NCBI GenBank assembly: GCA_958296175.1
Contig: OY282448.1
Coordinates: 62,001 to 126,000, forward strand
Reading direction: 5' to 3'
Source: an uncultured Chloroflexota bacterium
Lineage (GTDB): Bacteria; Chloroflexota; UBA11872
DNA: 64,000 nt
Below the pieces are notes generated by a model. The model did no database searches and was not told the DNA's origin. It saw only the letters and a program-made list of their open reading frames with translations. The position numbers and the translations under genes were made by a program. Below are positions 3,250 to 40,158 of this stretch, piece by piece. Numbering within the stretch: the first letter of the stretch is position 1; the number at the start of each line of letters is the position of its first letter.

Positions 3250-3546
3250 CTACGCGCGGACGAGGCGCTGGGGGCCGCTGAAGCCTTCGCGCTCGGTGCG
3301 CTGGCCGCCGACGAGCGCGCGCCAGACCCAGACGCGGCGCGGGACGCCCGCGTCGTCGCGCTCCACGCGGATGCGTACGCCGCGCCCCCACATGGCGTCG
3401 GCGCCGTGCTCCCGGGCGACGGCGGCTTCCAGACGGGCGCGCAGGTCGCCAACGTCATCGTCGGACGCGACCTGCACGGCGTGGCGGTACTCCGGATGCT
3501 GGTACAGCCCGCGGACCAGGGCGTCGAGTTTGGATTGGTCGGTCAT
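3250..3546 (-). CDS. Conserved-looking hypothetical protein (98 aa)
   Basis: This is a small basic and acidic protein without a family that I recognise. It begins MTDQSKLDALVRGLYQHPEY and contains a predicted helical N-terminal half, followed by a strand-rich part (WGRGVRIRVERDDAGVPRRV). It has no membrane segments. It lies 43 bp upstream of the sulfotransferase on the same strand and is probably co-transcribed with it. Codon use and amino acid balance look like a real gene rather than a shadow frame. Confidence 0.6.
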   Translation of the reverse strand: MTDQSKLDALVRGLYQHPEYRHAVQVASDDDVGDLRARLEAAVAREHGADAMWGRGVRIRVERDDAGVPRRVWVWRALVGGQRTEREGFSGPQRLVRA

Positions 3547-3728
3547 GGCCTCGCGGCAGTGGGCAGGGCGTTGCTGGCGGGGATAGTAGCAGGAATGGGA
3601 CGGGGGAGCGGCCGGTGGATGGAGGACTGTGGTTCCGGGTCGGCGGCTCGCGGCGCGCGGGCTGTGTCCGACGGGGGCGCGGCTGGAAGGCGGGGATGGC
3701 GGGGCGGGCGGCGGGGGACGGGTGAAGA

Positions 3729-3829
3729 CCCTCTCCCTGCCATCTCCCAGAGGGAGAGGGTAAGACACGGACGGGGGCGGCGCGGGTTGGGTGACGACCC
3801 TCTCCCTGCCATCTCCCAGGGGGAGAGGG
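3729..3829. repeat. Two copies of CCCTCTCCC/GGGAGAGGG palindromic repeat
   Basis: Two hairpin-forming copies lie at 3729-3760 and 3798-3829. Each has the left arm CCCTCTCCCT, a CCATCTCCCAG-type loop and a right arm GGGAGAGGG. They sit in the 345 bp gap between two divergent genes, which holds no other recognisable feature. The same element recurs at 20,300-20,526, 23,896-23,917 and inside a coding region at 33,805-33,827. Confidence 0.8.
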
Positions 3830-3891
3830 TGGCGATGCGGGGCGTGGCGTAGGATGCGGGGCAATCCGAGCTGGCCGGTGCGAGGCGCTGC

Positions 3892-4944
3892 ATGTTCGAG
3901 GCTCCCACGCAGCGCGTGCCCGCGGCCGTGCTCACGGCGTTTACGCAGGACCTGCTGGAACGGCACGGCCTGTCGCCCGAGCACGCCCAGCTGATGACCG
4001 CCAACCTGGTGGAGGCGGACATGCGCGGGGTGAAATCGCACGGCCACTGGCTGATGAAGCGCTACGCCGGCTGGCTGGACGACGGCGACATGAACGCGCG
4101 GCCTGACGTTCGCGTGGTGCGGGAGACGTCCGCCGCGGTGCTGATGGACGCGGACATGGCGCCTGGCCACGTGGCGGGGGCGCTGACCATGCGGCGCGTG
4201 GTGGCGAAAGCCCGCGAGGCGGGCGCCGCCACGGGCATCACGCGCGGCAGCCGCCACTTCGGCGCGGCGGCGCACTTTGCGCTGATGGCCGCGCCGCACG
4301 ACATGATTGGCTACGCCACCACCAACGCCGGGCCGACGCTTTTTCCCTTTGGCGGGCGCGAGCGCGTGGTGGGCAACAACCCCATCGCCTACGCCATTCC
4401 GCTGGAGGGGGAGCGTCCGCTGGTGTTGGACATGGCGATGTCGGTCTCGGCCAACGGCCGCATTGCCATCATGGAGCAGCTGGGGCAGCGGCTGCCCGAA
4501 GGCTGGGCGCTGGACCGCCGCGGCCTGCCCACCACCGACCCGCGCGACTTCAGCGCCGGCGGGGCGGGCGCGCCCATCGGCGGGCCGAAGGGCGTGGGGC
4601 TGGCGCAGGTGGTGGATGCGCTGACCGGCGTGCTGTCGGGGTCGGGGTTCGCGCGCGCGGTCTCGCGCGCGGCGGGCGGCGCGGGAACGATTTCGCACAT
4701 GTTCCAGGCGTTCGACGTGGCCGCCTTCATGCCGCCGGCCGAGTTCAAGGCGCGCATGGCGGAACAGATTCGGCAGTTCCGCAGCACGCCGCGCGCCGCG
4801 GGCGTGGACGAGATCGTGATCCCGGGCGAGCTGGAATGGCGGGCCTATGACGACGCGGCGGCGCACGGGGTGCCGCTGCTGGAACCGGTGATCGCCGACC
4901 TCAACGAGATCGCCGCCCGCAAGGGCGCGCCGCAGCGGCTGTAG
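3892..4944 (+). CDS. LDH2-family malate/L-lactate-type dehydrogenase
   Basis: This is an NAD(P)-dependent 2-hydroxyacid dehydrogenase of the LDH2/MDH2/YlbC family, unrelated to classical LDH. At 350 residues it has full family length. Family landmarks are ADMRGVKSHG near residue 43, the catalytic His in GSRHFGAAAHF, NNPIAYAIP in the dinucleotide region, and the Gly-rich GGPKGVGL loop. It is expected to oxidise a malate-, lactate- or ureidoglycolate-like hydroxyacid in the cytosol; the substrate cannot be assigned. The ATG at 3892 has GAGGCG about 6 bp upstream. It appears monocistronic. Confidence 0.9.
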   Translation: MFEAPTQRVPAAVLTAFTQDLLERHGLSPEHAQLMTANLVEADMRGVKSHGHWLMKRYAGWLDDGDMNARPDVRVVRETSAAVLMDADMAPGHVAGALTMRRVVAKAREAGAATGITRGSRHFGAAAHFALMAAPHDMIGYATTNAGPTLFPFGGRERVVGNNPIAYAIPLEGERPLVLDMAMSVSANGRIAIMEQLGQRLPEGWALDRRGLPTTDPRDFSAGGAGAPIGGPKGVGLAQVVDALTGVLSGSGFARAVSRAAGGAGTISHMFQAFDVAAFMPPAEFKARMAEQIRQFRSTPRAAGVDEIVIPGELEWRAYDDAAAHGVPLLEPVIADLNEIAARKGAPQRL

Positions 4945-5227
4945 GCGGGCGAGAGCCGCACGCCCCGCCGCTGGACGAACACGTGGCGCGCCGCAGCGGC
5001 CGTAGGCGGGCGGCTGGCCGCTCGCCTGGCGGCGCGGCCGCGGGCCGGCTCGGCTCGCCGCGCCTCCGCTCGCTGCCAGCGGGTGGAGGCGCGGCGCCCC
5101 CAGCGCGGCTGCCGCGCCAATGCGCCGCCGGCTGCATGCAGAGGCGGAACGACTCGATCCTCGCCCTCGTTCGTCCAGCGGGGGGGTGCGGACGGAACGA
5201 GGGAGAACGGGGGGAGGCCGGCGGGGG

Positions 5228-6100
5228 TCAGGCGGGGGCTGGGTCGAAGGCTTCGACGAACTCGATGACCTCGCGGGTAACGCGGGCAGGGGTGGAGGCG
5301 CCGGCGGTGACGCCCACGCGCATGCCGGGTTCGAACCAAGCGCTGTCGACGTCGGCCACGTCGTCCACCAGGAAGGCGGGTTTGTTCTTGATGTCGCGCA
5401 CCACCTCGACCAGGCGCTTGGAGTTGGAGCTGCGCTGGCTGCCCACCACGATGATCAGGTCGCAGGAATCGGCGGCGCGCACGGCCGCTTCCTGCCGGTC
5501 CTGCGTGGCCAAGCAGATGTCGTTGTGCACTTCGGCATGCGGCCAGCGCGCCCGCACGGCGTCGATCACGTCCTGCGTGTCCCAGATGCTGAGCGTGGTC
5601 TGGGTGGTCACGGCAATGCGCGGGCCGTCCAGGTCGAGCGCGGCCACGTCGTCGGGCGTGCCGACCAGATGCACGCGCCCCGGGGCCTCGCCGATGGCGC
5701 CTTCCGGCTCCGGGTGGCCGGCTTTGCCCACATAGATGATCTGATAGTCGCGCTCCGCCAGGTCGATGATGAGGTCGTGGGTGACGTAGACGTCGGAACA
5801 GGTGGCGTCGATGACGGTGAGGCCCTTGGCGACGGCGCGGTCTTTGACGGCCGGGGACACGCCGTGGGCCGTGAGGATGACCGTGCCGTGCTCGATCTTG
5901 TCCAGACCGGCCAGGCGGTCGTCGAAGTCGATGAGCTGCACGCCGTGCTGGGCCAGCTCGGACACCACGTGCGCGTTGTGCACCAGGTAGCCCAGCATGT
6001 AGACGGGGCCTTCCAGTGTTTCCCCGGCCTCGTTGGCGAGGCGGATGGCGTCGACCACGCCATGGCAGAACCCGCGGGGCGTGATGCGCAGAACGTCCAT
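5228..6100 (-). CDS. ispH: 4-hydroxy-3-methylbut-2-enyl diphosphate reductase
   Basis: IspH (LytB) performs the last step of the MEP isoprenoid pathway, reducing HMBPP to IPP and DMAPP with a [4Fe-4S] cluster. The 290-residue protein carries the three cluster cysteines in RGFCHGV, DATCSDV and NDICLAT. Conserved histidines occur in YLVHNAHVV, TAHGVSP and GKAGHPEPEG, and the serine-rich substrate loop is VVGSQRSSNSKRL. Together with ispD near 59.9 kb, it shows that the organism uses the MEP pathway. The gene ends in an Ala/Pro tail, and a GC-rich 283 bp spacer separates it from the convergent LDH2-family gene. Confidence 0.96.
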   Translation of the reverse strand: MDVLRITPRGFCHGVVDAIRLANEAGETLEGPVYMLGYLVHNAHVVSELAQHGVQLIDFDDRLAGLDKIEHGTVILTAHGVSPAVKDRAVAKGLTVIDATCSDVYVTHDLIIDLAERDYQIIYVGKAGHPEPEGAIGEAPGRVHLVGTPDDVAALDLDGPRIAVTTQTTLSIWDTQDVIDAVRARWPHAEVHNDICLATQDRQEAAVRAADSCDLIIVVGSQRSSNSKRLVEVVRDIKNKPAFLVDDVADVDSAWFEPGMRVGVTAGASTPARVTREVIEFVEAFDPAPA

Positions 6101-6190
6101 CAGTCGATCAGGCGGCGGTCAGGTCGTGCGTGGATGGTACCGCCCGCCGGGGGGTGCGTGCGTCCGAAGGGGGGCGCGGGGGCTGGGCGC

Positions 6191-8233
<2,043 letters not shown>

Positions 8234-8417
8234 GCGCGGCATACGGGCGGAGGGGGCGGTCAATTCTGGCGGACGGCGCGGACGCGGCCAAGCGGGTCGA
8301 CCATGAATGGGGCGGCCGTGCAGGCTGGGCGCGGCGGATGGCTGGGCGGCGGACGGCTGGGCGACGGCCGCTGGTTTGGCGGTGCGGCAGCGATCGTCAT
8401 CTGGGGTCCGTGCACTT

Positions 8418-8831
8418 TCACCGTCGATCGCGAAGCTCGGCTGGGGTAAGAACGGGGACGGCGAACGACGGCGCCAGGGCGAGGATGTCGGCGTCGCCTG
8501 TAATCGAGGCGTCGGCCCGGCCGCCGAGCGCCAGTTCCAGGAACGGACGGTCGTTCGGGTCGCGGCAGGCAGGCACGGCGGGCGCGTTCGAAACGTCGAC
8601 GGCTTCGCACCAGGGCAGGTACTGGGCCAGCAGGTCGCCGCGCTCGTCGGCCGTGAGCCTGAATTTCGGGTAGTGGAGTACCCGAATCAGTTCCGTTGTG
8701 GTCACGCGGCTTGCGAGCGGGACCACGTCTTGGGACTGCCAGGCGCGGCGCAGCCAGGACACCGCCCCCGCAGGGAAAAGCAGCGCCGACAGCACGACGT
8801 TAGTGTCAAGCACCAGACGGCGCAGGTCCAT
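8418..8831 (-). CDS. PIN-domain toxin of a toxin-antitoxin pair
   Basis: This 137-residue protein has the PIN nuclease fold. The first acidic residue sits in [15 protein letters not shown], a conserved Glu in TTELIRVL, and the C-terminal acidic cluster in [12 protein letters not shown] and [10 protein letters not shown]. It belongs to the COG1569-like group, which cleaves RNA when released from an antitoxin. Its start codon abuts the stop of the upstream AbrB-type gene (TGA then ATG), so translation is coupled. As usual for these modules, the antitoxin gene comes first. Confidence 0.85.
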
Positions 8832-9050
8832 TCAGGGGCGGCGCGCCCAGGCCACGGCGTCGGCCACGTCAGCCTCGGTCACGCCGAGTTCGGCCAGCTT
8901 GCGGTGCACCGCGTCCATCCGCGTGACGCGCAGCGGCGTCAGCGTGATGCGGCCGTCGTCGTTGGCGGCCTCGAAGTACTCCGTACCCTGGAAGTCGGCC
9001 ATCAGCGCCTTGGGCAGCGTGAGCTGGTTGCGGGACAGCAGCTTGACCAC
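8832..9050 (-). CDS. AbrB/SpoVT-type antitoxin
   Basis: This 72-residue protein has the swapped-hairpin AbrB signature at its start (MVVKLLSRNQLTLPKALMA) and an acidic helical C-terminus that would wrap the PIN toxin. It is expected to bind its own promoter and repress the operon. The ATG at 9050 is preferred because AAGGA lies 12 bp upstream and because the family begins here; an in-frame TTG at 9083 would add 11 residues. It is directly followed by the PIN toxin gene. Confidence 0.8.
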   Translation of the reverse strand: MVKLLSRNQLTLPKALMADFQGTEYFEAANDDGRITLTPLRVTRMDAVHRKLAELGVTEADVADAVAWARRP

Positions 9051-29473: not shown

Positions 29474-30373
29474 CTACAACCCCGCCGCGTCCGCCTTGGC
29501 GGACACGATCTCGGCCATTTTGAGGGTGGCGGCGTCCACCATCTCGCCGTCGATGGCAATGGCGCCTTTACCTTCGGCCAGGGCCTGGGTGTACTCGGTC
29601 ATGATGCGGCGCGCTTTGGCCGCGTCGGCCGTCGAGGGCGAGAAGACGTCGATGGCCACGTCGATCTGGTCGGGATGCACCGCCCATTTCCCGTCGCAGC
29701 CCAGCGCCAGCGCCATCTCGCAGGATTGGCGGTAGCCTTCCAGGTTGCGGTAGTCGGCGAAGGGCCCGTCGGTCACTTGCAGCCCGGCCGCGCGGGCGGC
29801 CACCACGATGCGGTGGATAGCGTAATGCCACACGTGGCCGGGGTAGTTTTCGCTGGCGCCAATGGACAGCCCGCGCGCCTGCACGCTGGCGGAGTAGTCG
29901 CCGGGCCCGAAGATCAGCGACTTCAGCCTGGGGCTGGCAAAGGCCACCTCGTTGACGTTGGCCATGCCCAGGGCCATTTCGATCTGCGCCTCGATCCCAA
30001 TGCGCCCCACCTCCTGGCCGGTGTGCATCTCGATCTGGGTCAACAGCGTGTCCAGCATGTAGACGTCGGCCGCGCAGTTGGCCTTGGGCAGCATGATGGT
30101 ATCGAGCCGTGGGCCGGCGCCTTCCACCACCGCGATCAGGTCGCCGTAAAACCACTCCGTGTCCAGGCCGTTGACCCGCACGCAGGCAACCTTGCCCGAC
30201 CAGTCGAAGTCGTTCAGCGCCTGGACCACCACAGCGCGCGCTTCGACCTTCTGGTTGGGCGCCACGCTGTCCTCCAGGTCGAGGAACACGTGGTCGGCCG
30301 TGCTCTTGCTGCCGTGTTCGAGCATGCGCAGGTTGGAGCCGGGGCTGGCGAGCTGGACGCGGCGAAGTTCCAT
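29474..30373 (-). CDS. CitE/HpcH-family lyase
   Basis: This 299-residue TIM-barrel enzyme is of the HpcH/HpaI-CitE family, which cleaves acyl-CoA thioesters such as citryl-CoA, malyl-CoA or related compounds. The N-terminus has SPGSNLRMLEHGSKSTADHV and the metal/CoA-binding FLDLEDSVAPNQK, and later VRVNGLDTEW and MLPKAN. The distal segment GCDGKWAVHPDQID is typical of malyl-CoA/citramalyl-CoA lyase-like members. The substrate is not resolved. The remnant of an aldehyde dehydrogenase lies just upstream on the same strand. Confidence 0.9.
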   Translation of the reverse strand: MELRRVQLASPGSNLRMLEHGSKSTADHVFLDLEDSVAPNQKVEARAVVVQALNDFDWSGKVACVRVNGLDTEWFYGDLIAVVEGAGPRLDTIMLPKANCAADVYMLDTLLTQIEMHTGQEVGRIGIEAQIEMALGMANVNEVAFASPRLKSLIFGPGDYSASVQARGLSIGASENYPGHVWHYAIHRIVVAARAAGLQVTDGPFADYRNLEGYRQSCEMALALGCDGKWAVHPDQIDVAIDVFSPSTADAAKARRIMTEYTQALAEGKGAIAIDGEMVDAATLKMAEIVSAKADAAGL

Positions 30374-30425
30374 GCGGGTGTTTCCTTGAGTGCAGCCGCC
30401 GTAGCGGCGCAGGCGGCGCCCGATG

Positions 30426-30548
30426 TTAGACGCTTTCCAGGTTCACGACCAACAGCCTGGGCTCGGTCGTCTCCTCGATGGCGTATTTCAGACCCTCGCG
30501 GCCGAAGCCGGAGCGCTCGACGCCGCCGTCCACAGCCGCGGCCATGGC
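30426..30548 (-). pseudogene. C-terminal remnant of an aldehyde dehydrogenase
   Basis: On the minus strand an open stretch of about 40 codons ends at TAA (30,426) and reads VDGGVERSGFGREGLKYAIE then EETTEPRLL. This is the diagnostic C-terminus of aldehyde/succinate-semialdehyde dehydrogenases. No other part of the enzyme is present upstream, so this is a decayed fragment. It sits immediately upstream of the CitE-like gene on the same strand, so an ancestral ALDH-CitE operon is plausible. Confidence 0.6.
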
Positions 30549-30900
30549 AGAGTTCCTTACAGCACCCAACGCTTGCGCCCGCGAGTGCAACGCCGCCGCG
30601 CCCCGCCCCGCACAGACGGCGGCGCGAGGTCTGGGGCCGCGCGCACCACCATCCGCAGCGGCCCCGCCCCGCGCGGGCGGCAGCGTGCCGTGGGGAGCGG
30701 CGGCGGCGATGGCGGCGGGGGGGGGGCGCCCCGCGCGGGCGGCAGCGTGTTTCGACTGCCGCCTCTACCAGCTTCGAGTCTCACGCGCCGCCGCGCCGGG
30801 CGCTACCCGCCGCCTGGAGTGACCGGGCGCAGGGATACGGCTCACGCGCCGCCGCGCCGGGCGTTACCCTGGATTCGCAGGCGGCCATGAGCAAACGGCA
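30549..30900. repeat. Spacer with low-complexity GC-rich repeats
   Basis: This gap before the SNF2 helicase holds repeats such as CGCGGGCGGCAGCGTG (30,674 and 30,735) and CTCACGCGCCGCCGCGCCGG (30,779 and 30,840), each spaced by about 60 bp. No gene is supported. The helicase promoter presumably lies here. Confidence 0.5.
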
Positions 30901-33900
30901 GTGAGCACGGACGACAGCCAAGCGGACGCGCGCGGGCGGGTGCTGGACAACCGGCGCCGCACGGTGGCGGACTACCTGCGGCCGCGGCTGCCCGGCGCCG
31001 CCGTGTTTCGGCTGGTGTCGGCCTATTTCAGCATCTACGGCTACGAGCTGCTGGCCGACGAGCTCGACCGCGTGAGCGCCGTGCGCTTTCTCTTTGGCGA
31101 CCCGGGGTCGGTGGAACATCTGGACCCGGGCGAGAAAGAGCCAAAGGCCTTCGTGCTGACCGAGCGCGGCCTCGCGCCCACCCACACGCTGCAGCAGAAG
31201 CATCTGGCGCGCCGCTGCGCCGCCTGGGTGCGCAGAGGCAGCGTCGCCATTCGTTCCATCCGAACGTCCAACTTCTTGCACGGCAAGCTCTACCTCGCCG
31301 ACGCGCCCGACGCCGCGGCCGCCGTGGTTGGCAGCTCCAACTTCACCCGCCGCGGCCTGGGCGGCGGCGCCAGCGCCAACCTGGAAATCAACCTGGCGTC
31401 CACCAACCCCAAAACCCTAAACGCGCTGCACCGCTGGTTCGACGACTTGTGGACGGACGACAGTTCGACCCGCGACGTCAAACAACAGGTGCTCGACGCC
31501 CTCCAGCGCCTCGGCCGCGACCATCCGCCCGAGCTGATCTACTACAAGACGCTCTACGAACTGTTCCAGGCCGACATCGACGCGCGCGGCGACGCCAACC
31601 AACAGCTCGAAGACACACACTTGCACGACACCGCTGTCTGGAACGCGCTGTACGAGTTTCAGAAAGACGGCGCCTCCAGCGTCATCACCCGCTTGCAGCG
31701 GCACAACGGCTGCATCCTGGCCGACAGCGTGGGGCTGGGCAAAACCTACACCGCGTTGGCCGTCATCAAATATTACGAACTGCGCAACCAGCGCGTGCTG
31801 GTGCTGTGCCCAAAAAAGCTGCGGCAGAACTGGGCGCTGTACCAGGCGCACACGGGACAACGGCACAATCCGTTTCTCGACGACCGCTTCGGCTACACCC
31901 TGCTGTCGCACACCGACTTGTCGCGCCAGAGCGGCTTCGCCGAGGACGTCGACCTCGCCGCCTTCAACTGGAGCGGCTACGACCTGATCGTCATCGACGA
32001 GTCGCACAACTTCCGCAACAGCGAAGGCCAGCGCTACCAGCGTCTGATCGACGACGTCATCAAGCAAGGCGTGGCCACCAAAGTCCTGCTGCTCTCCGCC
32101 ACCCCGGTCAACACCTCGCTGACCGACCTGCGCAACCAGCTGTACTTGATGACCGAAGGCCGCGAAGACAGCTTCCGCCAGAGCCTGGGCGTCGGCAACA
32201 TCGGCGCGCTTATGGCGGCCGCCCAGCGCGAGTTCAAGCAGTGGGAAAACCGCACCCCGCCGTCCAGCGGCCAGCGCGACAAAGGCGAACTGCTGGAACG
32301 TCTGGGCGCAGACTTCCTGCGCCTGCTGGAAGGCGTGTCCATCTCCCGCTCGCGCCGCCACGTCGAGCAGTTCTACCCGCAGGAAATGCAGCGCGTGGGT
32401 CAGTTCCCCGCGCACGAAGCGCCCGTCAACCGGCACCCGCCAACCGACCTGGACGACACCCTGTCCTACAAAGAGCTGGCCGACCAGATTGGCGCGTTTG
32501 CCCTGTCGGTGTATCGGCCCTCCGCCTATCTCGTCAGCGAATCCCGGCTGCGCGAACTGGACGACGAACGGGAACGGCGCAACTTCGATCAGCGCGACCG
32601 CGAGCGCTGGCTGACCGCCATGCTGCGCACCAATTTCTTGAAACGCCTGGAAAGCTCCCCCCACTCCCTCACCCTGACCCTTGAACGCACGCTCAAAAAA
32701 ATCGACGACCTGCTGGATCGCATCGCGCGGTTCCAGGACGGGCGCGCCGCGCGCGGCGCCCGCGCCGACGAGCGGCCCGACGACGATGACGACGACGAAG
32801 ACCTGATCGTCAACCGCACGCGCTATCCCTACCGCCTGGACGAACTAGACCTGCCCCGCTGGACGGACGACCTGCAGCGCGACAAAGCCACCCTTACGGC
32901 GGTCTGGGAACGCGTGCGCGTCATCACGCCCAACCGCGACGGCAAGCTGCAACAACTCGCACGCGACCTTCGAGACAAGGCGCAGAACCCCCCGCGCGAC
33001 CAGGACGGCCAGCCGAACCGCAAGCTGCTGGTATTCACCACCTTCAAGGACACGGCCAACTACCTGTACGAGAACCTGCACGGCCTGGCCGCCGAGTTGG
33101 GCCTGGCAACCGCGTGCGTGTCCGGCGACGCCGCCCAGACCGACCGCGGCCGCAACGACTACAACGAGATCTTGTCCCGCTTCGCCCCCGCGGCGCGCGC
33201 CCACAGCGCCGACGACGGCTCGGAAATCGACCTGCTCATCGCCACCGACTGCATCTCGGAAGGCCAGAACCTGCAAGACTGCGACACGGTGGTGAACTAC
33301 GACATTCACTGGAACCCGGTGCGCATCATCCAGCGCTTCGGGCGCGTCGACCGCATCGGCAGCCGCAGCCGCACGGTGCGCATGATCAACTACTGGCCAA
33401 CCGACGACATGGAGGTCTACCTGGACCTGCGCAACCGCGTGCTGGCGCGCATGGCGCTGGCCGACCTTTCGGCCAGCGGCGACGACGACCCCTTCACCGA
33501 AGACCAGGCCCAACTGGAACTGCGCTTCCGCGACGAGCAGCTGCGGAAACTGCGCCTGGAAATCCTGGACCTGGACGACCTGTCCGACGGCGTGGTGATG
33601 AGCGACTTCACGCTAGACCACTTCTTCGCGCAACTGCTGCGCTACCTGGAAACCAACCGCGCCCAGCTAGAAGCCACCCCCACCGGCGCCTACGCCCTCA
33701 CCCCCGCATCCCCTCCCTCTCCCCCCTCCCCCTCCCAGGACAGCCGCCTAGAAGCGGCAGTCGGGGTCCCCGCGTCCCCTCCCTCTCCCTCCCAGAGCTC
33801 TTCCCCCTCTCCCTTACAGGGAGAGGGTCGGGGTGAGGGTTCTTCCCCCTCGAAGCCCACCCCCCAGCATCCCCCCGCCCGCCGCGCCGCCCCGCCCGGC

Positions 33901-34335
33901 GTCATCTTCTTCCTGCGTCAGCGCAACGCCGCCGCCGACCTGCAGCACAAACCCGTCAGCCCCGTGCACCCCTTTTATCTGGTCTACGTCCACGCCAACG
34001 GCCACATCCGCCACGGCGCGGCCAACGCGCGCCAGGCGCTGACAATCTTCGAAACCGCCGCCGCCGGCCGCGCCAAACCGCTGCCAGACCTCTGCGACTG
34101 GTTCGACCGCACCACCACCCAGGGAACCGACATGACCCGCTACGACAAGCTCCTGCGCAGCGTGGCCGCCCACGTCCGCCAGGCGCACGCCCGCGAGCAG
34201 ACGCGCAACCTGGGCAGCGGCGGCCCGCGCGACTTCATCCTGCCCAAAGCGTCCGAAACGCCCGGCGCCCTCGACGACTTCGAGCTGGTCACCTGGCTGA
34301 TCATCGCGCCGCCCGCGGCGGCAGACGCCGCATGA
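30901..34335 (+). CDS. PLD-nuclease/SNF2-helicase fusion, defence-associated
   Basis: This 1144-residue protein has an N-terminal phospholipase-D-like nuclease domain with an HxK motif in FLHGKLYLAD (about residue 125) and SSNFTRRGLG, then a Swi2/Snf2-type SF2 motor. The motor shows Walker A DSVGLGKTYTA (about 277), DESHNFRN (about 366) and SATPVN, and the C-terminal lobe IQRFGRVDRIGSR (about 810). An aspartate-rich run precedes the C-lobe, and a ~65-residue Pro/Ser linker follows it. The start codon is GTG at 30,901. Its stop overlaps the ATG of the following methylase (ATGA). Relatives of this helicase are found with PglX-like methylases and in DISARM-like loci. Confidence 0.88.
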   Translation: MSTDDSQADARGRVLDNRRRTVADYLRPRLPGAAVFRLVSAYFSIYGYELLADELDRVSAVRFLFGDPGSVEHLDPGEKEPKAFVLTERGLAPTHTLQQKHLARRCAAWVRRGSVAIRSIRTSNFLHGKLYLADAPDAAAAVVGSSNFTRRGLGGGASANLEINLASTNPKTLNALHRWFDDLWTDDSSTRDVKQQVLDALQRLGRDHPPELIYYKTLYELFQADIDARGDANQQLEDTHLHDTAVWNALYEFQKDGASSVITRLQRHNGCILADSVGLGKTYTALAVIKYYELRNQRVLVLCPKKLRQNWALYQAHTGQRHNPFLDDRFGYTLLSHTDLSRQSGFAEDVDLAAFNWSGYDLIVIDESHNFRNSEGQRYQRLIDDVIKQGVATKVLLLSATPVNTSLTDLRNQLYLMTEGREDSFRQSLGVGNIGALMAAAQREFKQWENRTPPSSGQRDKGELLERLGADFLRLLEGVSISRSRRHVEQFYPQEMQRVGQFPAHEAPVNRHPPTDLDDTLSYKELADQIGAFALSVYRPSAYLVSESRLRELDDERERRNFDQRDRERWLTAMLRTNFLKRLESSPHSLTLTLERTLKKIDDLLDRIARFQDGRAARGARADERPDDDDDDEDLIVNRTRYPYRLDELDLPRWTDDLQRDKATLTAVWERVRVITPNRDGKLQQLARDLRDKAQNPPRDQDGQPNRKLLVFTTFKDTANYLYENLHGLAAELGLATACVSGDAAQTDRGRNDYNEILSRFAPAARAHSADDGSEIDLLIATDCISEGQNLQDCDTVVNYDIHWNPVRIIQRFGRVDRIGSRSRTVRMINYWPTDDMEVYLDLRNRVLARMALADLSASGDDDPFTEDQAQLELRFRDEQLRKLRLEILDLDDLSDGVVMSDFTLDHFFAQLLRYLETNRAQLEATPTGAYALTPASPPSPPSPSQDSRLEAAVGVPASPPSPSQSSSPSPLQGEGRGEGSSPSKPTPQHPPARRAAPPGVIFFLRQRNAAADLQHKPVSPVHPFYLVYVHANGHIRHGAANARQALTIFETAAAGRAKPLPDLCDWFDRTTTQGTDMTRYDKLLRSVAAHVRQAHAREQTRNLGSGGPRDFILPKASETPGALDDFELVTWLIIAPPAAADAA
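33700..33890 (+). repeat. Dispersed palindrome captured inside the helicase reading frame
   Basis: The element with CCCTCTCCC / TTACA / GGGAGAGGG arms (33,805-33,827), plus flanking CT-rich repeats, is translated in frame as a Pro/Ser-rich linker containing SPSPLQGEGRGEG. Its composition differs sharply from the flanking helicase sequence. The same palindrome is intergenic elsewhere in this window. Confidence 0.75.
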
Positions 34336-37300
34336 GCGCCCGCCGCCGCGCAAACGGCGGGAGCGGCGCGCCCGAGAGCCTCAGGCTCGACCGCATCCAC
34401 AAGGCGCTGGTCGAGGCGTCCGCCGCGGACCTGGCCGCGGCCGCGGAAAAGCTGCTGGGCGCGCTGGGCTACCGCAGCGAGCGCCGGCCGCCCGAGCAGT
34501 CCGGGTGCGTGGACGACTTCATCGCCAACTTCGGTGCCAGCGGAAGCTCCGACGCCCCGCCCACCCGGGCCGAAAGAGAGTTCCGCCAGCAGGCGCGCGC
34601 CGTCCACCTGCTGTTTCAGCTCACCAACGACGAAATCGCCGCCGCCGCGCCCGGCCAGGCCATGCTGTTCGAGACCAACGAGTTCGACCCGGGCGACATA
34701 CAGAGCTTCATGTTCGCGGCCGTGGACCTGTGCGGCCAGAAGTACCCGCGCGGCGCCTACGCGCGCTTCACGCGGGAAATCAACAAGCGGCTCGTCGCGC
34801 CGACCGTGGTCGTGTTCCGCACCGCCGACAGCAGCGGCGACAGCGACGGCGACGGCGACAGCAGCGGCGACAACAGCAGCAACGGCGACAGCAGCAGCGG
34901 CGGCGGCGTCAGCCTGGCCTTCGTGCACCGCCGCCCGCACAAGCGCGACCAGAACCGCGACGTGCTGGGCAGCGTGTCGCTGATCCGTGAAATCGACCCC
35001 GCGGACCCCCACCGCGCCCACCTGGACATCCTGCGCGACCTGGCCCTGGACCGCCGCCTGGCCTGGATGGAGCAGCACCGCCCGCGCAACGGGCACGGCT
35101 TCCAGAGTCTGCTGGACGCCTGGCTGGCGGCGCTCGACACCCAGGAACTCAACGCGTCGTTCTACCGGGACCTGGAAGACTGGTTCGACCGCGCGGTCGC
35201 GGCGGCCGTCTTCCCCGGCGGACAGCCGGGCGCGCCGTCCAACGAAGAGCACGTCATCCGGCTCGTCACCCGCCTGCTGTTCGTCTGGTTCATGCGGGAA
35301 AAGAGGCTGGTCGACCCAGGGCTGTTCGTCGAGGCGCAGATCGGCCCCTTGCTGCGCGACTACCGGCGCCAGGACAGCGGCGTGTACTACCGCGCCGTCC
35401 TGCAGAACCTGTTCTTCGCCACGCTCAACACCCAGATCGGCCAGCGCAGATTCAGCCGGCAAACCAACGCCACCCACCGCAACTTCTCGTGCTACCGCTA
35501 CAAAAAAGATATGCGCGACTCCAAAGCGCTGCTCGATCTGTTCGCGCGCACGCCCTTCGTCAACGGCGGCCTGTTCGACTGTCTGGACAGCGAAGCGTCC
35601 ACCAAAGGCGGCGGCATGCGCGTAGACGGCTTCTCGGACAACCCCAAGCAGCGCGGCGGGCTGAGCGTGCCCAACACCCTGTTCTTTGCCAGCAACGCGC
35701 GCTCCGGCCTGATCGACATCTTCCAGCGCTACAAGTTCACGGTGGAGGAAAACACCCCCGCCGAGCAGGAAGTGGCCTTGGACCCGGAACTCATGGGCCG
35801 CGTGTTCGAAAGCCTGCTGGCCAAAATCACCCCCGAAACCCGCCAAACCGTCCGCAGGCAGACCGGTTCCTACTACACCCCGCGCCCCGTGGTGGACTAC
35901 ATGGTGGACGAGGCGCTGGTGGAAGCGCTGGCCCAGAAAACGCCGCCGGACGACGGCGACGGCGGCTTCTGGCGCGAGCGGCTGCGCTACCTGCTGGACT
36001 ACCACGACGCCTTCGACGACGCGCTCGAGCTCTTCACCGCGCCAGAGACCGAGGGCCTGGTGCGCGCCATTGCCGGCCTCAAGATTCTGGACCCCGCCGT
36101 TGGCTCCGGCGCCTTTCCCATGGGCGCGCTGCACAAGCTGACCCTGGCGCTGCGCCGCCTGGACCCGCGCAACCGGCGCTGGGAAACCCTGCAAAAGGAG
36201 CTGGCGCGGCAGCGCGCCGGCGCCGCCTTCGACACCGCCGACCAAAAAGCGCGCGATGCGGAACTGCAGGAAATCAGCGCCACCTTCCAGCGCTACCGCG
36301 ACTCCGACTTCGGCCGCAAGCTCTACCTGATTCAGAACAGCATCTACGGCGTGGACATCCAACCCACCGCCTGCCAGATCGCCAAACTGCGCTTTTTCAT
36401 CTCGCTGGCCATCGAACAGGAGCCAACCGACGCCCCCGCGAACAACTACGGCATCGAGCCCCTGCCCAACCTGGAAACGCGCTTCGTGGCCGCCGATACC
36501 TTGCTGGCGCTGGACAAACCCGACCAGAAAACGCTGGAATCTCCTAAAGTCCGGCAGCTGCGGTCCAAGCTGGCCGACAACCGCGAACGCCACTTCCACG
36601 CCAGGACGAGACCCACGAAGTTGAAGTGCAGCAGCCGCGACCAGGACCTGCGCCAGCACCTGGCCAAGGCCCTGCAATCCGACGGCCTTGCCGCCGCGTC
36701 GGCCGGCCAACTGGCCGCCTGGGACCCCTTCGACCAGAACGCCAACGCCGCCGATTGGTTCGACGCCGAGCACATGTTCGACGTGCGCGGCGGCTTCGAC
36801 GTGGTGATAGGCAATCCGCCCTACGTCCAGCTGCAGAAAGAGAGCGGGCGGCTGGGCCGCCGTTACCAGAACGCCGGATTCACGACCTTCGTTCGCACCG
36901 GCGACGTCTACCAGCTGTTCTTGGAAAAGGGCGGCGACCTGCTGGCCTCCCGGCGCGGCGTGCTGGCCTTCGTCACCTCCAACAGTTGGCTGAAGGCGGA
37001 ATACGGCAAGCGCACGCGCCGCTGGCTGGCCAACCGCTGCGCGCCCCTGCGCCTGCTGGAACTGGGCAAAGACGTGTTCGCCAACGCTATCGTGGACACC
37101 TGCGTCCTGGTTGCCCGCCAGGGCGCGTCCACCGCCGCGGCCAAGGCCGTGGACGTGGAGCGTCTGCCCGACGGTCAGTTCCCTCCGCCCGACGACCGCT
37201 GGGGCGAGCTGCGCCTCGACGGCGACCGCCCCTGGAGCGCGCTCTCCGCCCTGGAACGCTCCGTCATGGACAAGATGGAGGCGGCAGGAACGCCGTTGAC

Positions 37301-38057
37301 ATCGTGGGACGTGTCGATCTACCGCGGCGTCACGACCGGCCTCAACGCAGCCTTCATCATCGACGACGCCATCAGGCAGTCGTTGGTTCTCGAAGATCCC
37401 AAGTCGGCCGACATCATCAAGCCGGCATTACGAGGCAGGGACATTCGACGCTATCGAGCGAATTGGGCGCAGATGTGGATCATCGATTCACATAACGGCT
37501 ACGGTGACGTTCCCGCTATCGATATCGACGAGTACCCCGCCGTGAAATCATGGCTCGATAGACACTACGACTACCTGGCAAAACGCTGGGACAAAGGCAA
37601 GACCCCATATAATCTACGCAGTTGCGCATACCATCAAGACTTTGCAAAAGAAAAGCTGCTTTGGATAGAGCTGGTGAACACAGGTCGTTTTGCTTATGAT
37701 AACAGCGGTTTGTATCCTGAAGCTACGGCATTCATACTCATTGGCGAAAGCGTAAAGTATCTGTGCGCCTTGCTGAATTCAACCTTGATCCGATGGTTTT
37801 TGTATCAGTCAGCCCCCACATCAGGCATGGGGACACTTCGTTGGAAGAAGGTATACGTCGAGACGATCCCCGTCCCCAAAATCCCCGCCGCCCGCCAGCG
37901 CCCGTTCATCCGTCTGGTCGACCGCATCCTGCAAGCCAAAGCCCACGACCCCCACGCCGACACCAGCGCCGAAGAGTCCAAAATCGACCACCTCGTCTAC
38001 CAACTCTACGACCTGACCAACGCCGAAATCGCCGCCATCCAAACCCACCACCCCTAA
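34332..38057 (+). CDS. PglX/Eco57I-like N6-adenine methyltransferase, type IIG-like
   Basis: This 1241-residue restriction-modification-type protein has a methylase core with motif I LDPAVGSGAFPMG (about residue 587), GVDIQPTACQIAKLRF, and motif IV VVIGNPPYVQLQKE (about 826), which indicates N6-adenine methylation. The last ~250 residues form the target-recognition part (GVTTGLNAAFIIDD, PALRGRDIRRY, TIPVPKIP). The N-terminal ~500 residues are an additional domain seen in large BREX/Pgl-like methylases; I see no clear nuclease motif. A DGDSSGDNSS-type insertion lies at about residues 165-195. Its ATG overlaps the stop of the helicase, so the two are translationally coupled. The DNA of the recognition domain is richer in A+T than the rest. 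Confidence 0.9.
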   Translation: MSARRRANGGSGAPESLRLDRIHKALVEASAADLAAAAEKLLGALGYRSERRPPEQSGCVDDFIANFGASGSSDAPPTRAEREFRQQARAVHLLFQLTNDEIAAAAPGQAMLFETNEFDPGDIQSFMFAAVDLCGQKYPRGAYARFTREINKRLVAPTVVVFRTADSSGDSDGDGDSSGDNSSNGDSSSGGGVSLAFVHRRPHKRDQNRDVLGSVSLIREIDPADPHRAHLDILRDLALDRRLAWMEQHRPRNGHGFQSLLDAWLAALDTQELNASFYRDLEDWFDRAVAAAVFPGGQPGAPSNEEHVIRLVTRLLFVWFMREKRLVDPGLFVEAQIGPLLRDYRRQDSGVYYRAVLQNLFFATLNTQIGQRRFSRQTNATHRNFSCYRYKKDMRDSKALLDLFARTPFVNGGLFDCLDSEASTKGGGMRVDGFSDNPKQRGGLSVPNTLFFASNARSGLIDIFQRYKFTVEENTPAEQEVALDPELMGRVFESLLAKITPETRQTVRRQTGSYYTPRPVVDYMVDEALVEALAQKTPPDDGDGGFWRERLRYLLDYHDAFDDALELFTAPETEGLVRAIAGLKILDPAVGSGAFPMGALHKLTLALRRLDPRNRRWETLQKELARQRAGAAFDTADQKARDAELQEISATFQRYRDSDFGRKLYLIQNSIYGVDIQPTACQIAKLRFFISLAIEQEPTDAPANNYGIEPLPNLETRFVAADTLLALDKPDQKTLESPKVRQLRSKLADNRERHFHARTRPTKLKCSSRDQDLRQHLAKALQSDGLAAASAGQLAAWDPFDQNANAADWFDAEHMFDVRGGFDVVIGNPPYVQLQKESGRLGRRYQNAGFTTFVRTGDVYQLFLEKGGDLLASRRGVLAFVTSNSWLKAEYGKRTRRWLANRCAPLRLLELGKDVFANAIVDTCVLVARQGASTAAAKAVDVERLPDGQFPPPDDRWGELRLDGDRPWSALSALERSVMDKMEAAGTPLTSWDVSIYRGVTTGLNAAFIIDDAIRQSLVLEDPKSADIIKPALRGRDIRRYRANWAQMWIIDSHNGYGDVPAIDIDEYPAVKSWLDRHYDYLAKRWDKGKTPYNLRSCAYHQDFAKEKLLWIELVNTGRFAYDNSGLYPEATAFILIGESVKYLCALLNSTLIRWFLYQSAPTSGMGTLRWKKVYVETIPVPKIPAARQRPFIRLVDRILQAKAHDPHADTSAEESKIDHLVYQLYDLTNAEIAAIQTHHP

Positions 38058-38100
38058 CCCCCACCCCTCCGCCGCAATGCAGCGCCTACGGCGAACCTGC

Positions 38101-38541
38101 TCAGACGCTGGTCAGCCACCAGATCAGGGCAACCACGGCGGCCTGGGCCAGGTAAAAGGGCAAGATCGAGACCGAGCGCAGAGCGGCGAACCAAGCAGCG
38201 AGCCCCGAGCCCTGCGGCGCAACCTCGAACAGGTCCGCGACGCCAGCCTCGCCGTTGCGGAGCTTGCGCAGGAACGTGTCGTAGGACGCGATAAAGCACC
38301 GCTCCAGGGCCAGGTAGTACGTGTCCAGACCAAGAAACAAGGCGATAGGCGCAAAGGCGATCCACTGGTAGTCGAAATCCATCACGCCCGCGCCCAACAC
38401 CAACATGGCCGCCACGACGATGACGCACCACGTCTTGTTGGCGCGGCTGCTTTCGGCCATGCGAGCGATGACGGCCTGCATGATGGACAGGTGCGCGTGG
38501 ACGGCGGGGGAGGTCTCGTCGAGTTTCGCGTCCCCGGCCAT
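38101..38541 (-). CDS. Small defence-island membrane protein
   Basis: This product of about 146 residues begins MAGDAKLDETSPAVHAH and has RMAESSRANKTWCVIVVAAM, a membrane segment, then IALFLGLDTYYLALERCFIA and a final membrane segment at the C-terminus. The R-M-A-x-S...K-T-W...LD-x-YYL-x-LER pattern recurs in widespread small membrane proteins of unknown function, which I recall as often lying near defence genes. It converges on the methylase gene with 43 bp between stops. An earlier ATG at 38,565 would add 8 residues. Confidence 0.65.
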   Translation of the reverse strand: MAGDAKLDETSPAVHAHLSIMQAVIARMAESSRANKTWCVIVVAAMLVLGAGVMDFDYQWIAFAPIALFLGLDTYYLALERCFIASYDTFLRKLRNGEAGVADLFEVAPQGSGLAAWFAALRSVSILPFYLAQAAVVALIWWLTSV

Positions 38542-38714
38542 GGGTCGTTCCGCCAAGCGCCGCATCCTCTAATTGTACGCGCCGCGTTGGAGCGCTCACG
38601 GTTAGCCGCCCCGCATTCCTTCGCTCCCGCCCTCGGGTTCTTGCCCCGTATCTACGAAGGGAGGCGGCTGTTGGCGGGAGCCGGCCGGGCTGGACGTGCG
38701 GCGGGGCCGGGCGT

Positions 38715-39047
38715 TTACCCGGGGGCGTGTTCGGCCAGGACCTGGGTGACCCAGGTGTCGATGCTCTGGCCGCTGTCGGCGGCGGCGGCGGCCACGCGCT
38801 GGTGCAGGTCGGTTCCCAGTCGGAGCTGGAGCTTGCCGGAGAACGGCGGTCTGGGGGCCACGCCGTCCTCGGCGCAGGACGCCAGATATTCGTCGATGGA
38901 GCGCTGGAACTCCGCCCGCAGCTGGCGCGCGTCGGATGCTTCGAACGTGGCGATGGGGTATGCGCCGGTGTTGACGACCCGCCCGTGCAGCCGCTGCACC
39001 GAGTCGTCGTATTCCACCGCCGCGGCATAGCCCTTGTACGTCAGCAC
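38715..39047 (-). CDS. hicB: HicB-family antitoxin with ribbon-helix-helix C-terminus
   Basis: This 110-residue protein has the N-terminal HicB fold (LTYKGYAAAVEYDDS) and a C-terminal ribbon-helix-helix-like segment (LQLRLGTDLHQRVAAAAADSG) for DNA binding. It neutralises HicA and should autorepress the pair. The GTG at 39,047 overlaps the end of hicA by 7 bp. It is oriented the same way as hicA and follows it. Confidence 0.85.
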   Translation of the reverse strand: MLTYKGYAAAVEYDDSVQRLHGRVVNTGAYPIATFEASDARQLRAEFQRSIDEYLASCAEDGVAPRPPFSGKLQLRLGTDLHQRVAAAAADSGQSIDTWVTQVLAEHAPG

Positions 39048-39316
39048 GGGGTCGACCTCCCGCCGGGGCGCACGCCCAGCGCCGCCAGGAACGCCGCAAG
39101 GTCGCGCACCGTGGCCCGGCCGATGTCCGGTCCGGGGTGCGGCCGATGTATCACCATTCGGTCTCCATCGTTCCTGAGCAGCACCCGCGACCCCTCCCGC
39201 TGGGTGACCGTTACGCCCAGCGCCGCCAGCAACGACTCGACGTCGGCCCAGCGGATATTCGCCGGCGTGGGTTTCTGGAAGAGCCGCCGCAGGGTGCGCC
39301 GATGCTTGGCTCGCAC
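39041..39316 (-). CDS. hicA: HicA-family mRNA interferase toxin
   Basis: This 91-residue product is a small double-stranded-RNA-binding-like toxin. The key His lies in RMVIHRPHPGPDI and the typical helix in RATVRDLAAFLAALGV. HicA cleaves mRNA when not bound by HicB. The start is probably the GTG at 39,316, since the frame upstream has no homology. The hicA-hicB order and overlap are those of classical hicAB modules. It points toward the helicase/methylase locus and is divergent from the GPP34 gene. Confidence 0.82.
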   Translation of the reverse strand: MRAKHRRTLRRLFQKPTPANIRWADVESLLAALGVTVTQREGSRVLLRNDGDRMVIHRPHPGPDIGRATVRDLAAFLAALGVRPGGRSTPC

Positions 39317-39501
39317 ACGGTCTACGGTACCACCGTCGGAATCGCCCGCCGGTCTCCCGCCCGTCTCCGCGCCGGCTCTGGACGCCCTGCGATGGCCGCG
39401 CGGACGCCTGGCTTGCTGGCCGCCGCGGTCTGGCGCGGGTGCGGGGTATGCTTGCCGCGGGCGGCCGGCTGGTGTGTGGCGCAAGGGCAAGGAGCGGTCT
39501 G

Positions 39502-40158
39502 GTGGTGCTGAGATTCGCCGAAGAGATCGTGCTGCTGCTGCTGGACGACGTGAGCGGGGAGTTTGCGCGCATTCCGGAGTGGTCGCTGCAGCGGGCGCTG
39601 GCGGGGGCGGTGCTGATGGACCTGGCGCTGGAGAACCGCATCGACACGGACCCGCAGCGGCTGTTTCTGGTGGACGGGTCGCCGACGGGGGACGACCTGC
39701 TGGACCCGACGCTGGCCAGCATTGCGAACGCGGAGGGGACGCACGACAGCCGCTACTGGGTGGAACAGACGGCCATGCAGCACGCGGACCGGGTGCACGC
39801 GCGCGTGCTGGAGCGGCTGGTGGAGCACGGCATTCTGCATCGGCGGGACGACCGCTTTCTGTGGGTGTTCCAGTCGCGGCGCTACCCGGCGGTGGACGGC
39901 ACGGCGGAGCGGGAAGTGAAGCTGCGCATCATGGAGGTGCTGTTCAGCGACGAGATTCCGGACCCGCGCGACATCGTGATCGTCTGTCTGGCGGACTCGT
40001 GCGGGATTTTCCAGGAGCTGCTGTCGAAGCGGGAACTGAACCTGGCCAGCGAGCGCATCCAACAGGTGCGCAAGATGGACCTTATCGGCCAGGCGATTTC
40101 GCAGGCGGTCTGGGATATCGAGATGTCGCTGGCGCTGGCGACACACCCGCTGATGTAG
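39502..40158 (+). CDS. GPP34 (GOLPH3-like) family protein
   Basis: This 218-residue protein is of the GPP34 family, whose eukaryotic members (GOLPH3, Vps74) bind phosphoinositides and organise Golgi glycosyltransferases. The typical start is LRFAEEIVLLLLDD, followed by GEFARIPEWSLQRALAGAVL and MDLALENRIDTD. The GTG at 39,502 has AGGAG 7 bp upstream. Bacterial members are widespread in Actinobacteria and related lineages and lack a defined role; a membrane-adaptor function is only an inference. Confidence 0.88.
   Translation: MVLRFAEEIVLLLLDDVSGEFARIPEWSLQRALAGAVLMDLALENRIDTDPQRLFLVDGSPTGDDLLDPTLASIANAEGTHDSRYWVEQTAMQHADRVHARVLERLVEHGILHRRDDRFLWVFQSRRYPAVDGTAEREVKLRIMEVLFSDEIPDPRDIVIVCLADSCGIFQELLSKRELNLASERIQQVRKMDLIGQAISQAVWDIEMSLALATHPLM

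Follow-up and report, generated by a model that had tools for sequence, protein, structure and literature searches.

Can an ATP-driven restriction system be built from two genes? The question is raised by a gene pair in a 64,000-nucleotide stretch of DNA from an uncultured Chloroflexota bacterium (the window), where a PLD-SNF2 helicase gene (HEL) is followed directly by the gene for a large adenine methylase (MT). The original prediction took the pair for a compact restriction system in which the PLD domain is the nuclease, and measured it against DISARM and BREX. The comparisons described here make it likely that HEL and MT form a two-subunit, ATP-dependent restriction-modification (R-M) system, although a different set of known enzymes provides the appropriate comparison.

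Architecture of the gene pair

The features of the locus are collected in Table 1. Both reading frames are open along their full length at the predicted positions, and the domains and the ATGA overlap that had been read from the DNA are borne out. Pfam matches PLDc_2 (E = 1e-9), SNF2-rel and Helicase_C in HEL, and Eco57I (E = 4e-31) and TaqI_C (E = 7e-15) in MT. Four other class genomes encode counterparts that align along the whole of both proteins, with 62-72% (HEL) and 49-61% (MT) identity to the window copies. Because the genes are also always adjacent and overlapping in these genomes, their pairing is not a product of chance.

Table 1. Features of the HEL-MT locus (window positions)
Feature	Position	Strand	Remarks
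HEL, predicted PLD-SNF2 motor/nuclease subunit	30901..34335	+	1144 aa, GTG start
Putative PLD nuclease domain of HEL	31180..31452	+	PLDc_2, residues 94-184
HEL predicted catalytic residues H127, K129, N147, E162	31279-31386	+	tetrad intact in 68/68 MT-clade relatives
SNF2-type ATPase core of HEL	31660..33360	+	SNF2-rel from residue 254; Helicase_C 704-820
In-frame low-complexity insert in HEL, about 60 residues, with REP-like palindrome	33709..33891	+	private to the window genome
ATGA stop/start overlap coupling HEL and MT	34332..34335	+	read directly in the sequence
MT, predicted adenine methylase and target-recognition subunit	34332..38057	+	1241 aa
MT N-terminal domain, residues about 1-300	34332..35231	+	conserved, without a recognised fold
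MT catalytic core, motif I (DPAVGSGAF) to motif IV (NPPY)	36090..36824	+	Pfam, motifs
MT target-recognition (TaqI_C-type) region	36825..38054	+	Pfam TaqI_C; swapped between orthologues

HEL begins with the PLD domain, continues with a two-lobed SNF2-type ATPase and ends in a conserved C-terminal region. The predicted nuclease and the motor are fused in one protein, as had been claimed, and H127-K129-N147-E162 match the signature of the PLD (HKD) superfamily (HxK with Asn and Glu/Asp). The best PADLOC model for HEL is C3a139, 'HKD+Snf2' (E = 8e-96). Its AlphaFold model (mean pLDDT 84) retrieves RapA/SNF2 with Foldseek, and a PDB sequence search likewise returns only SNF2/RapA-type motors and other helicases. 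When the PLD domain is isolated, its sole PDB match is BfiI (2c1l). The match is weak (E = 0.29), and in it the H, K and N residues and a conserved N-(I/L)-E line up with those of HEL.

The window copy of HEL carries an insert (approximately residues 937-998) that is missing from its orthologues and from 74 other relatives. The insert contains the palindrome ACCCTCTCCC...GGGAGAGGGT and is predicted to be disordered, with pLDDT below 50 at residues 942-993. It could impair this copy of HEL, or it may be tolerated. The same palindrome recurs in the window at positions 3729, 3798, 20300, 20431 and 23896.

The two sequence motifs previously reported for MT are present, DPAVGSGAF at residues 587-595 and NPPY at residues 828-831. 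Profile-to-PDB matches of the catalytic and C-terminal part of MT are to stand-alone adenine methylases, BseCI and TaqI among them.

Constancy of the pairing

A HEL profile scan of 84,980 species genomes found at least 576 relatives, the best 80 of which were kept as loci. These derive from Chloroflexota, Poribacteria, Cyanobacteria, Proteobacteria, Verrucomicrobia, Lentisphaerae, Planctomycetes, Bacteroidota, Ignavibacteria, Firmicutes, an archaeon and others. Nine of the 80 end at a contig edge, leaving 71 that are assessable. Among these best matches pairing is obligate: HEL lies beside a methylase in all 71. The partner is a window-type MT in 62 loci and DUF4391 with a type III Mod in the other nine, several of which also have a labelled Res. 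Sixty of the MT loci were identified by script, from an MT profile match downstream of HEL, and two by hand. In one of the latter (L055) an over-extended reading frame masked the overlap, and in the other (L124) MT lies upstream of HEL. MT overlaps the HEL stop codon in 17 of the 60 script-found loci, and the commonest HEL-MT start offset is -4 or -8 nucleotides.

The same constancy is evident within the class. Close orthologues of HEL (above 1200 bits) occur in five of 41 class genomes, and MT is present in exactly the same five, always adjacent to HEL (hypergeometric p = 1.3e-6). No MT core without HEL was found in these 41 genomes.

Some relatives depart from the simple arrangement. Genes for YhcG/DUF1016, Fic or Schlafen-AlbA_2 lie between HEL and MT in some loci, and an SMC/RecF-like ATPase gene is located 3' of MT in about a dozen (including L065, L061 and L075). 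Because of these added ATPases, two genes may not be the full set everywhere. The window locus has neither inserted genes between HEL and MT nor an SMC/RecF-like ATPase gene. L086 matches the MT profile in its N-terminal part only, and MT is broken or displaced in L058, L078 and L089. In the last of these loci, HEL is separated from broken MT/HEL fragments by the gene for a 1444-aa protein and two shorter open reading frames (3352-9008), possibly an effector cassette.

Search for DISARM and BREX components

The pair might be what is left of a DISARM or BREX locus, degenerate or partial, the remaining genes having been lost or lying at another site. HEL does match the DrmD model (154.5 bits) and MT the PglX model of BREX-1 (67 bits), but both scores fall far under the curated cut-offs of 610 and 500 bits. 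The earlier description of MT as PglX-like is thus a loose one. As first observed, no drmA or drmB is found in the neighbourhood, and profile searches gave no match to PglZ or MZB (DUF1998) anywhere in the window's genome. The sole DUF499 gene of this genome is near 337.6 kb, about 245 kb from HEL, which starts at 92.9 kb. PglZ and DUF499 are also absent from the four orthologue genomes, one of which (G006) has an MZB protein on a different contig from the pair. In three loci where the chromosome is one long contig (L053, L054 and L061), PglZ and DUF499 matches are far from the pair.

Homologous loci consistently lack drmA/B and pglZ/brxC. What the survey finds is recurrent two-gene pairs without drmAB (62 of 71 assessable loci), the pattern that the original prediction had proposed to look for. 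The outcome that would have spoken against it, homologues that always come with full DISARM or BREX sets, did not occur, and PglZ is absent from all five pair-bearing class genomes. Descent from a partial DISARM or BREX locus is extremely improbable.

The same searches bear on DUF499-type BREX-related systems (Hma, Type-2 BR), one of which could have lost its ATPase to leave the pair. Such systems also join a helicase of the Swi2/Snf2 type, fused to an N-terminal HKD domain as in HEL, with an N6-MTase (PMC12839542), and HEL matches HmaA at 3e-27. However, no DUF499 gene lies beside the chromosomal pairs checked or occurs in the four orthologue genomes, and BR methylases nest the target-recognition domain (TRD) inside the MTase core, whereas here it is C-terminal. 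We regard this origin as very unlikely.

Location of target specificity

In ten orthologue pairs, HEL is 62-79% identical and the MT core 61-79%. In nine of these pairs the recognition region of MT retains only 15-24% identity; the window-L036 pair has 58%. No hypervariable block was seen in HEL across the ten. Because only the MT recognition region diverges while HEL and the MT core stay alike, specificity appears to reside in MT alone. A recognition domain in HEL would need to change alongside that of MT; none does, which suggests that HEL has no recognition role.

Between its MT and HEL genes, a more distant PLD-SNF2/methylase pair in the same genus (L039 3104-8830 and L040 5641-10755) contains an additional recognition-region fragment in inverted orientation, together with a putative gene for a tyrosine recombinase. 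In L039 this fragment and the TRD of the window MT share 62.8% identity. Specificity at these two loci is possibly phase-variable, and their arrangement is the one expected if switching the recognition domain alone switches the system. A search for inverted repeats around them gave no convincing recombination sites.

The PLD active site and the type III sister clade

All four residues of the tetrad are intact in 68 of 75 aligned helicases, and these 68 are all the members of the MT clade in the alignment. The seven helicases with a lost tetrad all come from the DUF4391-Mod clade. All 75 retain the ATPase motifs, with Walker A GK and DEsH invariant. The PLD site is likewise lost in thirteen further HELs of the type III (DUF4391-Mod) clade, encoded on plasmids and in a phage (20 of 20 overall). 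Twelve of the thirteen are annotated (L134 has no annotation and is not scored for neighbours); all 12 lie beside a gene in the DUF4391 position and a DNA methyltransferase, and 11 also adjoin a Res-like helicase. In the phage member, the gene in the DUF4391 position goes under another name. An RE_endonuc domain is present in each of the four Res proteins of this clade that were scanned. The PADLOC 'HKD+Snf2' model is the top match for HELs of both clades, and a tree splits the two with an SH-aLRT of 100 (quick method, midpoint root).

Selection on the PLD site is lifted upon the change of partner. Since the tetrad is kept throughout the MT clade and gone where Res has an endonuclease domain, the view that the PLD domain serves as the nuclease of the pair is supported. 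PLD loss falls on a single branch and so reflects one evolutionary transition, not 20 independent events. The contrast of 68/68 with 0/20 is consequently strong as a constraint pattern, but not as a count of independent events. It had been recognised at the outset that a PLD domain without catalytic residues in most relatives would undermine the proposal. The survey finds the opposite, with loss confined to the sister clade.

Loci of the sister clade, in which type III R-M genes accompany a PLD-dead SNF2 helicase and DUF4391, include L113, L116, L119, L121-L123, L125-L133 and L135-L140. They are found on plasmids of E. coli, Acinetobacter, Lactococcus, Leuconostoc, Mycolicibacterium and an archaeon. 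Erysipelothrix phage phi1605 also carries a type III locus with a PLD-dead SNF2 helicase.

Two other assignments of the cutting activity can be weighed against this pattern. The nuclease could reside in MT, as a self-sufficient Type IIG enzyme with nuclease and methylase in one chain, leaving HEL as an auxiliary motor; annotation in the style of PADLOC and REBASE points this way. REase_MTase_IIG is the best PADLOC model for MT (E = 1.9e-142). Because the large, conserved and uncharacterised N-terminal domain of MT has no PDB match and no recognised fold, it may hold a nuclease of unrecognised fold. However, no conserved D...(D/E)xK triad was found in residues 1-300 among 51 MT homologues, and Foldseek of residues 1-600 gave no match and no nuclease fold. 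The lack of solitary MT cores in the class and the strict PLD-site constraint, found in the MT clade only, also count against a self-sufficient MT, which is unlikely.

Alternatively, restriction could proceed without cleavage. HEL would then be a translocase that stops the replication of phage DNA or displaces bound proteins, and its PLD domain would be structural. The type III clade retains a PLD-dead HEL whose ATPase is intact, so the motor does something that needs no cleavage, and PbeABCD, which includes an HKD-SF2 helicase, has been proposed to act without direct cleavage (PMC10853773). A catalytic tetrad conserved in every MT-clade member is not expected of a structural domain, though, and we consider this explanation improbable.

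Proposed mechanism

The reading that we prefer, a two-gene restriction system with a PLD nuclease, draws its support from the recurrent pairs, the divergence of the recognition region in MT alone, the preserved tetrad, the precedent of PLD nucleases driven by SF2 ATPases and the setting in a defence hotspot. MT would use its C-terminal TaqI_C-like domain to bind a defined sequence, in which it would methylate adenine. HEL, which has no recognition domain of its own, would work in complex with MT. An encounter of MT with an unmodified site would set the SNF2 motor of HEL translocating along the DNA, and the N-terminal PLD domain, probably paired with a second PLD domain, would cut. Unmodified phage DNA would be restricted in this way.

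Genomic context

The flanking genes, HpcH aldolase on one side and GPP34/IlvD on the other (window 29474-40158), are a conserved feature of the genus. In its other genomes, 5-17 kb of variable cargo lies between these flanks, with a BsuBI/PstI-type R-M pair, Fic, HigBA and metabolic genes in place of HEL-MT. Because conserved flanks enclose other R-M and toxin modules in relatives, the HEL-MT site is a variable defence/toxin hotspot. HicB antitoxin-like and HicA toxin-like genes lie downstream of MT on the minus strand (window 38718-39490).

Three further, divergent PLD-SNF2 and methylase pairs (L009, L010 and L011; about 30% identical) are present in the same 3.0 Mb genome. They also keep the PLD HxK...N motifs, and the methylase of L010 is divided between two open reading frames.

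Implications

In the pair, ATP-driven restriction would be reduced to a minimum of two genes, one for a protein that picks the site and one for a generic motor-nuclease. With this division of labour, recognition can be swapped within one chain. The sister clade is a natural experiment in which the nuclease decays where Res brings its own and the motor is retained. Two questions become directly testable: what an SNF2 motor does besides cutting, and why some type III systems have third and fourth subunits.

More tentatively, and with somewhat less than even confidence, we suggest that the pair is an undescribed, widespread type of ATP-dependent R-M system (methylase-TRD plus PLD-SNF2 motor) whose motor passed into type III systems in a single capture. 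The result would be a four-subunit machine with a nuclease-dead subunit and DUF4391, in which the SNF2 motor does type III work that is absent from two-subunit Mod-Res models. A literature search, with most subscription literature outside its reach, found no paper describing the two-gene pair, its recognition-domain swapping or nuclease loss in DUF4391-type III loci.

Comparison with known systems

DISARM and BREX proved to be the wrong yardstick; the nearest working models are Type ISP enzymes, SauUSI and CglI/NgoAVII. DISARM (DrmA/B/C/D and DrmMI) shares with the pair an SNF2 helicase, a PLD nuclease and an adenine methylase. In contrast to DISARM, the locus has no DrmA or DrmB, combines the nuclease and SNF2 motor in one protein and scores low against the DrmD and DrmMI models. 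Membership in DISARM class 1 is rejected because DrmA and an MZB-containing DrmB are lacking and HEL falls below the DrmD cutoff. BREX membership is rejected on the absence of PglZ from the genome and the low PglX score.

Comparative genomics has already described HKD/PLD-SF2 fusions as effectors of ATP-dependent R-M-like systems (PMC12839542, PMC10853773). Type-2 BREX-related/Hma and CxC-ABC/PbeA systems place an HKD endonuclease-SF2 helicase fusion beside a DNA methylase, as here (PMC12839542, PMC10853773). However, the former need a DUF499 ATPase and DUF3780 and the latter an ABC ATPase and DndE, none of which is present. With no DUF499 ATPase in the locus, the pair is not assigned to Type-2 of the DUF499 BREX-related (Hma) systems.

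CglI and NgoAVII, which consist of a PLD R-protein, an SF2 N-protein and a methylase, likewise have an SF2-powered PLD nuclease and a separate methylase. Their SF2 ATPases drive PLD nucleases to cut DNA, and H104A/H105A abolish cleavage (PMC4267653). They differ from the pair in three respects: the R-protein carries a B3 recognition domain, whereas recognition here is assigned to MT; PLD and ATPase occupy two chains, which are fused in HEL; and the methylase is of the C5 type, MT being an adenine methylase. SauUSI, a Type IV enzyme, has the PLD nuclease fused N-terminally to an SF2 ATPase (PMC7913695), as in HEL, but it has its own TRD, targets modified DNA and has no cognate methylase.

The four-gene type III loci (HEL-DUF4391-Mod-Res, on plasmids and phage and in Firmicutes and archaea) use the same HEL family, as a sister clade, with HEL first in the operon. 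They differ in having a PLD-dead HEL and in carrying the nuclease domain on Res. The sister clade qualifies as type III; the window pair does not, its partner being an Eco57I/TaqI_C methylase instead of Mod and Res.

Type ISP enzymes are single polypeptides with an Mrr-like PD-(D/E)XK nuclease. In LlaGI and LlaBIII, one TRD serves both methylation and ATP-driven restriction, and an SF2 motor is coupled to an adenine methylase, as proposed here. Formal membership is rejected because the window pair has two chains and a PLD nuclease instead of a single Mrr-type polypeptide, and its motor is of the SNF2 type. By analogy, the best reading of the pair is that it resembles a Type ISP enzyme split in two and equipped with a PLD nuclease.
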